Of a DNA stretch of 27,880 bases, positions 304 to 25,884 are shown in pieces. The position numbers and the translations under genes are program-made. Position 1 is the first letter of the stretch; each line of letters starts with the position of its first letter. The stretch lies in the IMG/VR virus record IMGVR_UViG_3300043444_000323, positions 1-27,880 of that record; one strand, given 5' to 3'. This DNA is from a virus. Below the pieces are notes generated by a model. It was not told the DNA's origin. It saw only the letters and a program-made list of their open reading frames with translations, and searched no databases.

Positions 304-804
304 ATGGCTAAATTTGGATTCGACGTCTCTGACGTCTCCCCTGACACCGGCGCTGCCGGTGGTTCTTACGACCCTATTCCTGAGGGTGAGTACATTTTGA
401 AAGCACTGGACGCTGAAGAAAAAGCAACCAGCGCCGGTACGGGTTCTTACATCAAGGTGAAGTTTGAAGTCGTCAAGGGTGAGTATGCCGGTCGCCTGAT
501 CTGGCAGAACTTCAACGTCAACAACCCCAGCGAGAAGGCTCAACGCATCGGTCGTCAGCAAATGGTAGCATGGGCAACCGCCTGCGGTAAGCCTGACGCA
601 GACGACACCGACAAGCTGCTTGAGAAGCAGTTCAGCGCGGCGGTTTCTATTGAGAAGGGCACGGGTGGTTACTCTGACAGTAACCGTATTAAGGCGTTCT
701 TGTTTGATCAGGAAGCCGCGCCAGCTAAGGCAGCGCCTAAGCCAGCGGCTAAGCCCGCCCCTGCCGCCGCTCCCGCTAGCAAGTCCGCTAACCCTTGGGA
801 CTGA
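304..804 (+). CDS. DUF669-type single-stranded DNA-binding protein
   Basis: This 166-residue protein has a good ribosome site (AAGGAG at 291-296) before ATG 304. Residues 1-130 match the DUF669 pattern: an N-terminal FGFDVSDV stretch, then YDPIPEGEYILKALDAEEK, then GSYIKVKFEVVKGEYAGR followed by WQNFNV. This is the beta-barrel core of a family found beside phage recombinases and thought to bind ssDNA. From about residue 135 the chain becomes an Ala/Pro/Lys linker and ends in SANPWD. That layout, an OB-like core plus a flexible linker plus a short aromatic/acidic tip, resembles bacterial SSB. Its role is inferred to be coating ssDNA and loading the upstream ATPase or the downstream nuclease. 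The family call is fairly secure; ssDNA binding is known only by family. Confidence 0.8.
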   Translation: MAKFGFDVSDVSPDTGAAGGSYDPIPEGEYILKALDAEEKATSAGTGSYIKVKFEVVKGEYAGRLIWQNFNVNNPSEKAQRIGRQQMVAWATACGKPDADDTDKLLEKQFSAAVSIEKGTGGYSDSNRIKAFLFDQEAAPAKAAPKPAAKPAPAAAPASKSANPWD

Positions 805-15731: not shown

Positions 15732-15739
15732 CTTATAAT
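15711..15739 (+). promoter_or_regulatory. Rightward sigma70-type promoter, antisense to lysis genes
   Basis: TTGAAA (15711-15716), a 17-base spacer, then perfect TATAAT (15734-15739). This is 11 of 12 consensus positions with ideal spacing. Transcription would start near 15746 and run antisense through the lysozyme and perhaps holin genes. The -10 overlaps the last codons of lysozyme. No sense gene lies downstream on this strand for many kilobases, so the product would be an antisense RNA. A chance match in AT-richer sequence cannot be excluded. Confidence 0.42.
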
Positions 15740-16191
15740 AGGGTGCACTCGGCTTGCCGGCGCTTAAGGAGTCCTGGCAGGACGCGCCCACCACCCCGCG
15801 TCCACAGCATGAGTTGCTCTTTTGCCCCCGCCCAATCCTGTTCATTGATCTTTCGACGCAGCGTGCTGGTCTGCAAACGCCCCACCCCGAGGTTATACGC
15901 AAAGTCAACAATCGCATTCAGTTTCCGCCAGTCGTTTTCTTTCATGGCTAGAGTCAACAGAATTGGGCACTGGCGAATTGTTCCTGGTGCGTATTTGTGC
16001 AACAGTTCGGTCATCAAAAGCGCCCTTGCCGCCGGTTCGTCCATCGGCGCGTCTTGCAGGGTGACCTTAGTGCCGTCTGAATAGAAAGTGCTACCGTAAC
16101 CGATTGTCGGAACACCGGCGGGACACAGGTAAGGCTTTGACTTGAAGCCCTCAAACCTGCGGCACAGCTCGGCAGCAATTTCTAAATTCAT
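15733..16191 (-). CDS. GH24 (T4-type) lysozyme, endolysin
   Basis: The 152-residue enzyme cleaves the peptidoglycan glycan chain at lysis. The catalytic region is RRFEGFKSKPYLCPAGVPTI then GYGS: Glu14, Cys23 and Thr29 are in the E-x8-(D/C)-x5-T register of phage GH24 endolysins, with Cys in place of the Asp20 of T4 lysozyme. DFAYNLGVGRLQTSTLRRKI and the late GGGRVLPGLLKRRQAE are also standard GH24 features. There is no N-terminal signal or anchor segment, so release should depend on the holin encoded just upstream, with which it shares an ATGA-type overlap. It is terminal in the lysis cassette. Confidence 0.92.
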   Translation of the reverse strand: MNLEIAAELCRRFEGFKSKPYLCPAGVPTIGYGSTFYSDGTKVTLQDAPMDEPAARALLMTELLHKYAPGTIRQCPILLTLAMKENDWRKLNAIVDFAYNLGVGRLQTSTLRRKINEQDWAGAKEQLMLWTRGGGRVLPGLLKRRQAECTLL

Positions 16192-22733: not shown

Positions 22734-23051
22734 TTAGAAACCGAAGATCATCGCCATAGCGATGGATTTACCTGTTGTGATGCCCGCTGTGGGGGTAGAG
22801 AAAGTTAAATTACCCGCCCCGTCAGTGCTTACCACTTGACCGGCAGAGCCGTCAGCGGTGGGGTACTTGAGACCTGCTGGGTTGTTGATGATACGCTTCA
22901 CCGTACCGGTGTTGTTCTTAGCGTACAACGCCATGTCAGCGTCAGCAATGTTGAAACCCAGTTCACCGGCGCTCAAGTTACCGGACGAGGGGGCTGCGCC
23001 CGCAGTGGTCGTGCGGTAAAGTTGAATTGGGGTATAGCCTGTTTGTGCCAT
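22734..23051 (-). CDS. Small fibre-like tail protein, 105 aa
   Basis: YTPIQLYRTTTAGAAPSSG, then LSAGELGFNIADADMALYAK, is the standard N-terminal motif of phage fibres and tropism proteins. Here it is followed by only a short segment, TADGSAGQVVSTDGAGNLTF, which resembles one repeat unit of the 827-aa fibre, and a hydrophobic end (SIAMAMIFGF). It therefore looks like a minimal fibre or an anchor-only protein. It may join a longer fibre to the virion. No reverse transcriptase or template repeat is present, so it is not evidence for a diversity-generating element. Confidence 0.65.
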   Translation of the reverse strand: MAQTGYTPIQLYRTTTAGAAPSSGNLSAGELGFNIADADMALYAKNNTGTVKRIINNPAGLKYPTADGSAGQVVSTDGAGNLTFSTPTAGITTGKSIAMAMIFGF

Positions 23052-23056
23052 GTTTG

Positions 23057-23401
23057 TTACCTCAGGTTTTCAAGTTTGTAAAGGGTCTTCATATGCATAC
23101 CTGTGAGATCATCAACAATGTTCTCAAGAGCTGGAACACCCTTAGCAACCTTGCTACGGTTTTCATTCAGCCAAATTATATCATCATGAATCATTTTCGC
23201 AACGCTTTTTTCCTGCTCGCCGACTTCACCAATGATTCCGAATGTGCCTTGATACGCCTCGATCAAGTCATCAAGCTGCTCAATCACGTCCTCGTAGTAA
23301 TGCCCGAGGGCTTTGTGCTCAGCGTAAGACTTCGTTTTCCAGTGCGCGATGTGAGCCGCGTTTCTAGCGTGGAATAGCCGCTCGATTAGTGTTTCAATCA
23401 T
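23057..23401 (-). CDS. Ferritin/Dps-like phage protein (DUF5856-type)
   Basis: A 114-residue all-helical protein. Residues 17-52 read HIAHWKTKSYAEHKALGHYY, then EDVIEQLDDLIEAYQG: His20-Trp21, His29, His34-x3-Asp38, Asp44-x3-Glu48. This resembles the His-Trp, HxxxD and DxxxE signatures of the Dps ferroxidase site, and the DUF5856 family of phage proteins has been linked to the ferritin-like superfamily. A second charged helix pair follows (EKSVAKMIHDDIIWLNENRS, and 91-114). It lies between fibre genes with one-base overlap to the 827-aa fibre. It could be a structural helical bundle that has lost metal binding, or a DNA/iron-binding protein. Family call is moderate; activity is unproved. Confidence 0.68.
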   Translation of the reverse strand: MIETLIERLFHARNAAHIAHWKTKSYAEHKALGHYYEDVIEQLDDLIEAYQGTFGIIGEVGEQEKSVAKMIHDDIIWLNENRSKVAKGVPALENIVDDLTGMHMKTLYKLENLR

Positions 23402-25884
23402 CAGAATGTGCCCCCGTCAACACCGCCCCAGTTCGGAGCACTTGAACCCGCAGACCTCAAAACCTGTCCGGCAGTGCCGTTAGCGAGGAAAGCCGTAGCA
23501 CCTGAACCGGTCTGGTAAGGGATCTGGCTCGCTGCGCCACCTGCGAGGTTAGTTGCGGTGGTCGCGCTAGTGGCGGTTGTAGCCGTGGTGGCTGAACCGA
23601 CCGAGAGCGTGCTCTGAGCCACGTACTGCGGTGCGCTAGCCCCTGCGGTCAAGACATAATTAGTCGTGCCGAGAGCGAGCGTTGTCGTCGTAGCTGAGCC
23701 GCTCTGATAAACGATGGATCCAGCAGCGCCGCCGGTTACGTTGGTAGCTGTGACAGCGGTAGTGGCGTTACCGACAGTAACCGAAGCGGGATCTGTCCAA
23801 ACAGGAGCAGACCCGTTTGAGGTCAACATATAGGTATTAGAGCCGATGCCCAACTTGCTCAGCGCCGTGCCCGATGTGTAGTAAGGTAAGTCACCCGCCG
23901 TAAAGCTGGTCAAACCTGTACCGCCGTTAGCTACAACCACAGGCGCTGTCAGACTGAACTGAGTACCGGTCAGCGTCAAGCCTGTGCCGGCAGAGTACAC
24001 CTGAGAAGAGCTAATCTGCGCAAATGTGATAGCCGTCGTGCCGAAGGTTATGACCCCTGAAGTCGTACAGACGTATGTCTCACCAGCGCCCGTGTTACCG
24101 TTAGTAACAAAGAACGCGTCGTTGTAGCCCAAGGCGTCTGGATCACGCAAGCCGTAAGTGTCTGCGTCCGTAGCGCGGGTCAGCACCCAGTTAGTAGAGC
24201 CGTTACCGACTGTGGTCAGCGTGTAAACGCCGTTTTCAAACTGATTTGTTTGATTGTATATCAGGACGCGACTGTTGAGCGGTACGGCGATACCGTCAGC
24301 GGTAAACGCCGCTTGAGTTCCAGCGTTGGTCAGCGTAGCGCCGACACCCGCTGTTCCGTTGTTGTAAGTCGCGTTCAAGTTACCCGTCGTGCTGGGGACT
24401 TCAACGTAAACGGGTGAATGGTATGAAATACCTTGCGTGACCAACCCGTCCACATACTGTTTTGTAGCGACTTGGAAGTTGCTAACGGGGTCTTGCGTCA
24501 CTGCGACCGAAGTCAATCCGCCCAGCGTCAAAGACGTAGCGCCCAAAGACACAGAAGTGGTTCCCAGCGTCACCGCGCTGTTTGTCAGAGCGCCGTTAGG
24601 AATACCGCTGAAGTTTGTACCTGTCAGGGTCGGGGTTGTACTGTAACTAGGGGTTGAGCCACCGACCAGAACACCCGTACCAGCAGCTAAGAATGTCGTA
24701 ACCCCTGAACTGGTCTGGTACGGAACCGAACCAGTCGCGCCACCGGCGAGGCTACCCGCCGTTCCTGTGGTGTTCTGGTTCAACGTGGGAACGTCCGCCG
24801 CGACCATGGCGCGGAAACTCGGAGTTCCGGTTGAGCCGTCAGGAGAAGCTAAAAATTTATTCGCTGTCTGCGATGCCCAGCTACCCGCCAGCACTCCGGC
24901 TGAAGTCACGGGAGAGCCGGTAACTGTGAAGTCAGAAGGTAGGGTTAACCCTACGGAGGTAACAGTTCCCGCACCAGCGATCGTACCCCATTCAAACCCC
25001 GTGCCGTTCCATTTGAGCAGGGTGTTTGCGAACGAAGGCGCGTCAATGAACGCGGTTACGTCGGTAGCCGACTGATAAGCGATCTTGTTAGCAGCGCCGC
25101 CGTTCAAATTGTCGGCTTGACCCACGTCAAGGGCGCTCTGGCTCACCCAGATATACTCGCCCGTGCCGTTTGATTGCAACACCTGACCGACCGCACCCAC
25201 AGGACCGACGTACAAGCCGTCAGCGCCTGACCAGATGATTGCTCCCGCGTCGGGAACGATGCTACGCGAAGTGCCGCCGTTAGCTACGGACAGAACGCCG
25301 TCCACCTCGTTAGAATCTTGTAGGTTCACGGAGGGGTGTTGGTGATCAGCGCGGGCGATATCCGTTGAAGAACCAGCAGCACCTAAGCCGTCAGTGGCTA
25401 GCGGCGTAGAATTAGAGAGGTTAGCGTTCAGCGTGACGTTAGCATTCAACGCGCCGCCGCCGTTCAGACCCGTGCCAGCAATGACTTGACGAGTAACGGG
25501 AACGTAATCACCCGCGCCTGAAGCGGGCACAGAGGTAGCCGCTTGAATGCGACCCTTAGCGTCTACCGTAAAAACGGGAATGTTAGTCGCATCACCGTAA
25601 GTGCCAGCAGTAACGCCCGTAGCCGCAAGTTGCGTGTTACCGATGCCACCTACGGCGACGCTCAATGTGACATTACCGGTCAACTGCCCGCCGCCGGTCA
25701 TACCTGTTCCGGCAATCACCTGAGTGGTCGTGGGAACACCGGCAACGCTCAGCAGGTCACCGACGCGAATCTGATAGTTATTGCCCTGATAGACGATCAT
25801 CATCAGGCTGTTTTCATCAGCCACAGGGGCGAGCGGTAACTGCGTAATTCGCGTTGGTATTAGATTACTTGGTACGTCAGACAT
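23401..25884 (-). CDS. Long tail fibre with repeated Gly/Thr-rich shaft units, 827 aa
   Basis: The N terminus (LIPTRITQLPLAPVADENSL, then MMIVYQGNNYQIRVGDLLS) is a fibre anchor. Shaft units follow: (V/T)(I/Q).AGTG(M/L)(T/N)GGG.L..NVTL twice (about 57-75 and 133-152), VDAKGRIQAAT, and VLSVANGGTSRSI. Four repeats of 'N(L/V).GGA...I.YQ(S/T)....T.F(I/L)' are scattered from the middle to the end, each leading to 'L..G....(Y/W)'. The segment near 490-640 (SYHSPVYVEVPSTTGNLNAT, SRVLIYNQTNQFENGVYTLT) is a distinct beta domain common in phage fibres. It ends GVDGGTF. No chaperone or hydrolase domain is visible. Confidence 0.8.
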   Translation of the reverse strand: MSDVPSNLIPTRITQLPLAPVADENSLMMIVYQGNNYQIRVGDLLSVAGVPTTTQVIAGTGMTGGGQLTGNVTLSVAVGGIGNTQLAATGVTAGTYGDATNIPVFTVDAKGRIQAATSVPASGAGDYVPVTRQVIAGTGLNGGGALNANVTLNANLSNSTPLATDGLGAAGSSTDIARADHQHPSVNLQDSNEVDGVLSVANGGTSRSIVPDAGAIIWSGADGLYVGPVGAVGQVLQSNGTGEYIWVSQSALDVGQADNLNGGAANKIAYQSATDVTAFIDAPSFANTLLKWNGTGFEWGTIAGAGTVTSVGLTLPSDFTVTGSPVTSAGVLAGSWASQTANKFLASPDGSTGTPSFRAMVAADVPTLNQNTTGTAGSLAGGATGSVPYQTSSGVTTFLAAGTGVLVGGSTPSYSTTPTLTGTNFSGIPNGALTNSAVTLGTTSVSLGATSLTLGGLTSVAVTQDPVSNFQVATKQYVDGLVTQGISYHSPVYVEVPSTTGNLNATYNNGTAGVGATLTNAGTQAAFTADGIAVPLNSRVLIYNQTNQFENGVYTLTTVGNGSTNWVLTRATDADTYGLRDPDALGYNDAFFVTNGNTGAGETYVCTTSGVITFGTTAITFAQISSSQVYSAGTGLTLTGTQFSLTAPVVVANGGTGLTSFTAGDLPYYTSGTALSKLGIGSNTYMLTSNGSAPVWTDPASVTVGNATTAVTATNVTGGAAGSIVYQSGSATTTTLALGTTNYVLTAGASAPQYVAQSTLSVGSATTATTATSATTATNLAGGAASQIPYQTGSGATAFLANGTAGQVLRSAGSSAPNWGGVDGGTF

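Follow-up and report, generated by a model that had tools for sequence, protein, structure and literature searches.

A basic DNA-binding tail is present in some proteins of the Dps family. In Helicobacter pylori NapA, which belongs to this family, the ferroxidase site is built from two histidine residues of one subunit and an aspartate and a glutamate of the other, placed on helices 1 and 2, and in the apo protein His22 bridges to Asp52 (PMC4192664). Among phage proteins, gp217 of Salmonella phage Sajous1 has been designated a 'ferritin' by Phyre2 (96.7) and tied by its authors to the Ferrojan horse idea, in which iron loaded into the tail serves to exploit siderophore receptors (PMC10892097). 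In phage T4, over-expression of rI.-1 makes lysis inhibition slightly longer (Golec et al. 2010, as given in the review PMC6832632), and an accessory role in regulating lysis or its inhibition has been proposed for the gene.

A ferritin prediction for one lineage and detections of relatives in virions are already in print. Iron is not mentioned in the available text of the rI.-1 literature (PMC6832632, PMC3622015); the name DUF5856, borne by the family to which these two phage proteins and the one described here belong, turned up in no paper in a literature search, and searches with phrases on phage Dps or ferritin returned nothing on this family. What we report as new, from sequence comparison, is a full set of putative ferroxidase ligands that is invariant across the family, together with a link of this predicted site and of the virion data to T4 rI.-1.

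Gene and family

The stretch of viral DNA analysed here, of 27,880 nucleotides and referred to as the window, carries on its minus strand a single open frame of 114 codons plus stop (Table 1), and the plus strand of the same interval is broken by stops. A preliminary description of this DNA had called a 114-residue protein at this place without giving its strand, a call borne out by the minus-strand frame as well as by Pfam, PHROG and tblastn; that the protein belongs to a large known family had gone unrecognised. Indeed, Pfam DUF5856 (PF19174) is matched over profile positions 1-94 of 94 with 65.9 bits (E 7.3e-18), against a gathering cut-off of 34.6, which makes the window protein a member by the curated score, and PHROG 858 is matched with E 1.8e-21; a search of NCBIfam returned nothing relevant for the protein. 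The family includes T4-type RI.-1. PF19174 has no function in Pfam, and the label of PHROG 858, 'starvation-inducible transcriptional regulator', is unsupported by the present evidence. All 44 family sequences that we have aligned also match DUF5856 at E up to 1.

A tblastn search of 50,697 phage records with the window protein hits 1,275 of them; identity stays under 60% throughout, and coverage reaches at least 80% in 1,259. These relatives belong to T4-like phages, in which the gene is rI.-1, to Ackermannviridae (Kuttervirus, Limestonevirus), to phiR1-37, to phages of Caulobacter and Methylophilaceae and to uncultured phages of more than 600 kb; close relatives are also carried by uncultured IMG/VR contigs, one of which (L002) encodes an identical protein. 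The median dN/dS against relatives is 0.05 (49 of 62 pairs, those with finite dS), which on these alignments indicates that the 114 codons are under strong purifying selection. Clearly, the Pfam and PHROG matches, the breadth of the phage records and the dN/dS value establish that the gene is real and not a chance ORF.

Table 1. Positions of the features discussed, given in the window unless another locus is named
Feature	Position	Strand	Basis
Dps-like gene, DUF5856 / PHROG 858, four-helix protein of 114 aa	23057-23401	-	ORF, Pfam, PHROG, profile, AlphaFold
Codons of predicted helices A and B (residues 2-54)	23240-23398	-	AlphaFold
His17 codon, aligned with NapA His22	23351-23353	-	19/19 members, 42/45 rows
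His20 codon, aligned with NapA His25, a ferroxidase ligand	23342-23344	-	19/19 members, 45/45 rows
His29 codon, aligned with NapA His37, a ferroxidase ligand	23315-23317	-	19/19 members, 45/45 rows
Asp44 codon, aligned with NapA Asp52, a ferroxidase ligand	23270-23272	-	19/19 members, 45/45 rows
Glu48 codon, aligned with NapA Glu56, a ferroxidase ligand	23258-23260	-	19/19 members, 45/45 rows
Upstream fibre-like ORF, 827 aa; its TGA shares one base with the ATG of the Dps-like gene	23401-25884	-	junction, PHROG
Candidate Shine-Dalgarno, a G-rich stretch lying 9 bases ahead of the ATG, where the upstream ORF ends	23411-23415	-	sequence; function inferred
Downstream ORF, 105 aa, N-terminal tail-fibre match	22734-23051	-	phrog_10316, E 4.6e-7
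rI followed by the DUF5856 gene, T4-like records	L091 2648-3324; L235, L236, L237, L238
Endolysin, holin, lysozyme or M15 peptidase adjoining the family gene	L089 8001-8818; L093 4929-5770; L088 8001-8903; L229 5487-6327

Dps kinship, candidate ligands and predicted fold

The kinship to Dps is reached only with a family profile, since the window protein alone gives no match up to E 10 among PDB sequences; searched alone against Pfam Ferritin, it likewise gives none up to E 10. With the profile of 44 members NapA is the top PDB sequence (1ji4, E 2.7e-5) and MrgA is found with E 0.0018 (2chp). Nine of the ten best matches belong to the Dps family, among them three NapA chains, Helicobacter cinaedi CAIP and Bacillus subtilis MrgA; a designed protein (6kos, E 0.0057) takes the remaining place. 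Up to E 10 the profile retrieves 55 distinct sequences; Dps proteins account for many of these, and the weakest hits are unrelated.

The alignment with NapA sets four residues of the window protein at the ferroxidase ligands and a fifth at His22, and their conservation (Table 1) was counted in two sets. The first has 19 members, the window protein and 18 tblastn hits hand-picked for diversity from 120 listed of the 1,275 records, with a median pairwise identity of 30% and a minimum of 18%; the second has 45 rows, largely loci from motif-pattern searches and hence biased, of which 6 are duplicates and 39 distinct. The four residues are found at the spacing of the window protein in 222 of 225 family ORFs, the other three being L145 and L116, which have a longer turn, and L180, which is cut at the contig end. 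In 13,858 non-family ORFs of the same loci the pattern of five residues does not occur and that of four occurs three times. A scan of genomes for cellular homologues gave 95 stretches that fit the pattern, with relatives encoded by two of them; both are on short contigs of metagenome-assembled genomes, and these contigs are probably viral.

The interval between the two histidines is 9 in the window protein and 12 in NapA; on helix B both proteins have intervals of 15 and 4. Four relatives (L145, L116, L239 and L240) have 12-13 residues between the putative histidine ligands, which is Dps-like in comparison with the usual 9, and may be intermediates. Spacings of 10 (L144) and 12 (L227) are artefacts of the pattern, in which an earlier histidine was picked. 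Of the signatures put forward in the preliminary description, His-Trp (20-21) and DxxxE (44-48) are present, with His20, Asp44 and Glu48 conserved; HxxxD (34-38), though present, is not conserved, and His34 and Asp38, kept in only 2 and 5 of the 19 divergent members, were rejected as ligands.

The same sequences bear on whether the protein might be a Dps that compacts DNA or regulates genes, as the label of PHROG 858 implies and as the remote kinship to Dps would allow. The net charge of the window protein is -6 and is negative in 18 of 19 members, and helix A is predicted to start at residue 2, so that a single residue precedes it and there is no basic tail; moreover, the Pfam and NCBIfam searches returned no DNA-binding domain. 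Compaction of DNA, which the preliminary description had entertained, is disfavoured by this charge and this short N-terminus, and we regard such a role as highly improbable.

The AlphaFold model of the window protein (mean pLDDT 96, pTM 0.80) has four helices, comprising residues 2-22, 26-54, 67-86 and 90-112, and none that links the second to the third: the short fifth (B-C) helix of Dps is absent from it. Comparison of a predicted structure with Dps, proposed beforehand as a check, has given the four helices and no clean superposition of the whole model. In Foldseek Dps comes first with a probability of 0.97 but with E 0.1, a TM of 0.45 and an rmsd of about 18 A, and in VIA the rows for Dps and ferritins extend only from residue 1 to about 63, at about 2-2.7 A. 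Over the whole chain VIA ranks sulerythrin best, with Z 7.5 and 6.1 A over 107 residues, a score under the helical-bundle line of the tool. Sulerythrin is rubrerythrin-like and domain-swapped, its ligands differ from those of the window protein and, with 9% identity and the high rmsd, the likeness probably reflects just a shared open hairpin arrangement. The model of the window protein looks like an opened bundle with a Dps-like A-B hairpin and the C-D hairpin elsewhere, either by domain swap or as an artefact of prediction. In BFVD this model has weak matches to a 'Putative DpsA' of the uncultured phage cr106_1 (A0A7M1RWN9, E 0.055) and to a Pithovirus protein (A0A481ZC29, E 0.018).

As no clean whole-chain match to Dps was obtained from the window model, we have also modelled a T4-type relative (L094; pLDDT 91, pTM 0.84). 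Its model superposes on Mycobacterium smegmatis Dps2 with Z 14.3 and 2.1 A over 115 residues, and most of the structural rows listed for it are Dps, bacterioferritin, YciE/YciF or other ferritin-like chains; its Foldseek E-values are weak too, the best being 0.064. The T4-type relative is thus predicted to close into a ferritin-like bundle, with a three-residue turn only at the place of the Dps B-C helix. The link between helices B and C has 17 residues in this relative against 12 in the window protein, and the shorter link could favour a domain swap in the window lineage. Taken together, the Dps-likeness first noted for this protein finds support in the family profile, in four of the six residues then named, which are strictly conserved, and in the closed T4-type model, and it extends over residues 1-63 only in the window model. 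The window gene is filed, from its sequence, as DUF5856, a ferritin-like relative, and not as Dps, since the B-C helix, the basic tail and a Pfam Ferritin match are all missing.

Neighbouring genes and relatives in virions

The gene had been described as lying between fibre genes, which is borne out in part: the downstream ORF has the tail-fibre match; upstream, the long ORF matches a PHROG of unknown family and 'head decoration'. Its junction with the Dps-like gene is conserved: among 79 relatives having at least 600 bases upstream (7 further loci, with too short a flank, stand outside this count), 70 show the one-base overlap of start and stop with a long upstream ORF. All these 70 ORFs resemble the one in the window, and the other 9 relatives have no long ORF there. 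The position of the G-rich stretch is also kept in the relatives listed. In the relatives listed the length of the fibre-like ORF varies from 567 to 940 codons while its end and the junction are constant, which suggests a variable inner region. Neighbours were picked for 32 loci and, once missing or short-fragment ones had been dropped, 29 downstream and 29 upstream neighbours plus the window's own were left; 7 of the 29 downstream neighbours scanned match tail-fibre N-termini. Elsewhere in the window, a gene for a single-strand DNA-binding protein-like product (304-804, plus strand; PHROG 6015, E 2.7e-20) runs opposite to the structural block.

A distinct scenario is observed in other phages, where the family gene overlaps the end of the portal gene, or lies near the large terminase and the head-tail connector, or follows tail genes; in T4-like phages it stands beside rI and outside any structural cluster. 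In the five T4-like records opened, rI, annotated as antiholin or lysis inhibition, is directly upstream of the DUF5856 gene in every case and overlaps it in four, and a lysis gene adjoins the family gene in four other lineages (Table 1). These neighbours, with the prolonged lysis inhibition seen on over-expression in T4, are what favours an accessory role in the regulation of lysis or its inhibition, in which iron or redox chemistry may tune the timing of the holin. A general association with lysis cassettes, suggested by the first records, was rejected after a wider scan of neighbours found few lysis genes: within the 29 downstream neighbours an endolysin PHROG is matched once (among the 25 families listed), and Pfam Phage_lysozyme and M15 once each. 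Of the 12 annotated lineages opened, 5 have an adjacent lysis gene and 7 have none, and jumbo phage RaK2 has a homologue of the family but is described as lacking T holin and RI in the available text of PMC3622015. The lysozyme gene of the window itself (15733-16191, Phage_lysozyme, Pfam E 1.3e-31) shares the strand of the Dps-like gene and lies downstream of it by about 7 kb. A lysis role for the window protein is therefore, in our judgement, quite unlikely.

Relatives have been detected in virions of several phages. ORF78 of LIMEstone1, 89% identical to a Kuttervirus member of the family, is noted in its record as 'confirmed structural protein', and 3 unique peptides covering 28% of it were found in the virion proteome (PMC3296691). 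Sajous1 gp217, which belongs to DUF5856, gave 10 spectra in virion mass spectrometry (PMC10892097); it is 94% identical to the same Kuttervirus member, which aligns with the window protein, Kuttervirus members being about 32% identical to the latter. The record of phiR1-37 g280 bears the note 'phage structural protein', and g280 goes unmentioned in the available text of PMC4848604. In a CsCl-purified pair of Klebsiella T4-like phages, 26 and 27 spectra were obtained for a protein assigned to the family by its PHROG 858 label alone, the two preparations containing 153 and 135 detected proteins (PMC13119998). Given the sensitivity of mass spectrometry, the relatives may be contaminants in these virion proteomes.

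The virion detections, the strict coupling to the fibre-like ORF in the window lineage and a shortened fold without B-C helix could all be accounted for by a structural or assembly protein of the virion, in which the conserved His/Asp/Glu site binds Fe or Zn purely as a structural metal, keeping the helical bundle locked, for instance at the fibre-like protein, without turnover. However, the residues kept are exactly the active ferroxidase set, spaced on helix B as in Dps (15 and 4), and the family gene is found in quite different places across phages, which indicates that it is not bound to one structural partner. We thus consider a purely structural metal improbable. Loading of iron into the tail, raised in the preliminary description and proposed by the authors on Vi01-like phages, would be in line with the prediction and the virion finding for gp217 and with the fibre-like gene that adjoins in the window; gp217, by difference, adjoins other virion genes and a primase and not a fibre gene. 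Against it, TonB- and FeoB-deficient Salmonella were infected about as well as wild type by a related phage whose 'ferritin' had been detected in virions (PMC10892097). An iron-storing cage is, moreover, hypothetical for a protein of 114 residues, and we hold that a Ferrojan horse is very unlikely here.

Proposed role and comparison with known systems

The reading that we favour, and judge fairly likely from the sequences and models, is that the window protein is a minimal, late-expressed and probably particle-associated ferroxidase of the Dps type, which would handle Fe(II) at a subunit interface. The helix A-B hairpins of two subunits would pair across a two-fold axis, so that the ferroxidase site would take His20 and His29 from one subunit and Asp44 and Glu48 from its partner. 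This site would bind Fe(II) and oxidise it with peroxide or oxygen, resulting in less Fenton damage and hence in protection against Fe(II) and peroxide. Translational coupling to the fibre-like gene would have the protein expressed along with virion proteins, and in the window phage it would probably associate with the particle or with particle assembly. Points against this reading are the window model, which as a whole does not superpose on Dps, the lack of PDB and Pfam Ferritin matches for the protein taken alone, the chance of contaminants in the virion proteomes and, in T4-like phages, the place of the gene beside rI.

A wider proposal, which we put forward tentatively and hold to be somewhat doubtful, is that T4-like phages, Ackermannviridae, jumbo and uncultured phages have in common a miniature ferroxidase, carried in the virion or expressed late, which in the window lineage may be a domain-swapped dimer on account of the short B-C link. 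It would remove Fe(II) and peroxide as infection draws to its end or in free particles; T4 RI.-1 would accordingly be an iron enzyme. If true, this would give a testable chemistry, in the laboratory phage T4 with its rI.-1, to a small protein that ranks among the commonest unexplained ones of T4-like and Vi01-like phages, and would replace the misleading database label 'transcriptional regulator'. It would also join three literatures that we have not seen connected, namely those on an accessory gene of lysis inhibition, on a virion protein and on a predicted phage ferritin. Marine and freshwater ecology, in addition, has an interest in the question of iron in phage particles.

In comparison with Dps, the window protein is smaller (114 residues against 144 in NapA) and its A-B turn is three residues shorter; as predicted from sequence and model, it is also without B-C helix and without basic tail, and the dodecameric cage of Dps would be hypothetical for it. 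In spite of these differences, the family has in common with H. pylori NapA, B. subtilis MrgA and M. smegmatis Dps2 the four putative ligands, the histidine placed three residues ahead of the first of them and the predicted order of the helices, and the window protein further shares with Dps the tryptophan that follows His20.
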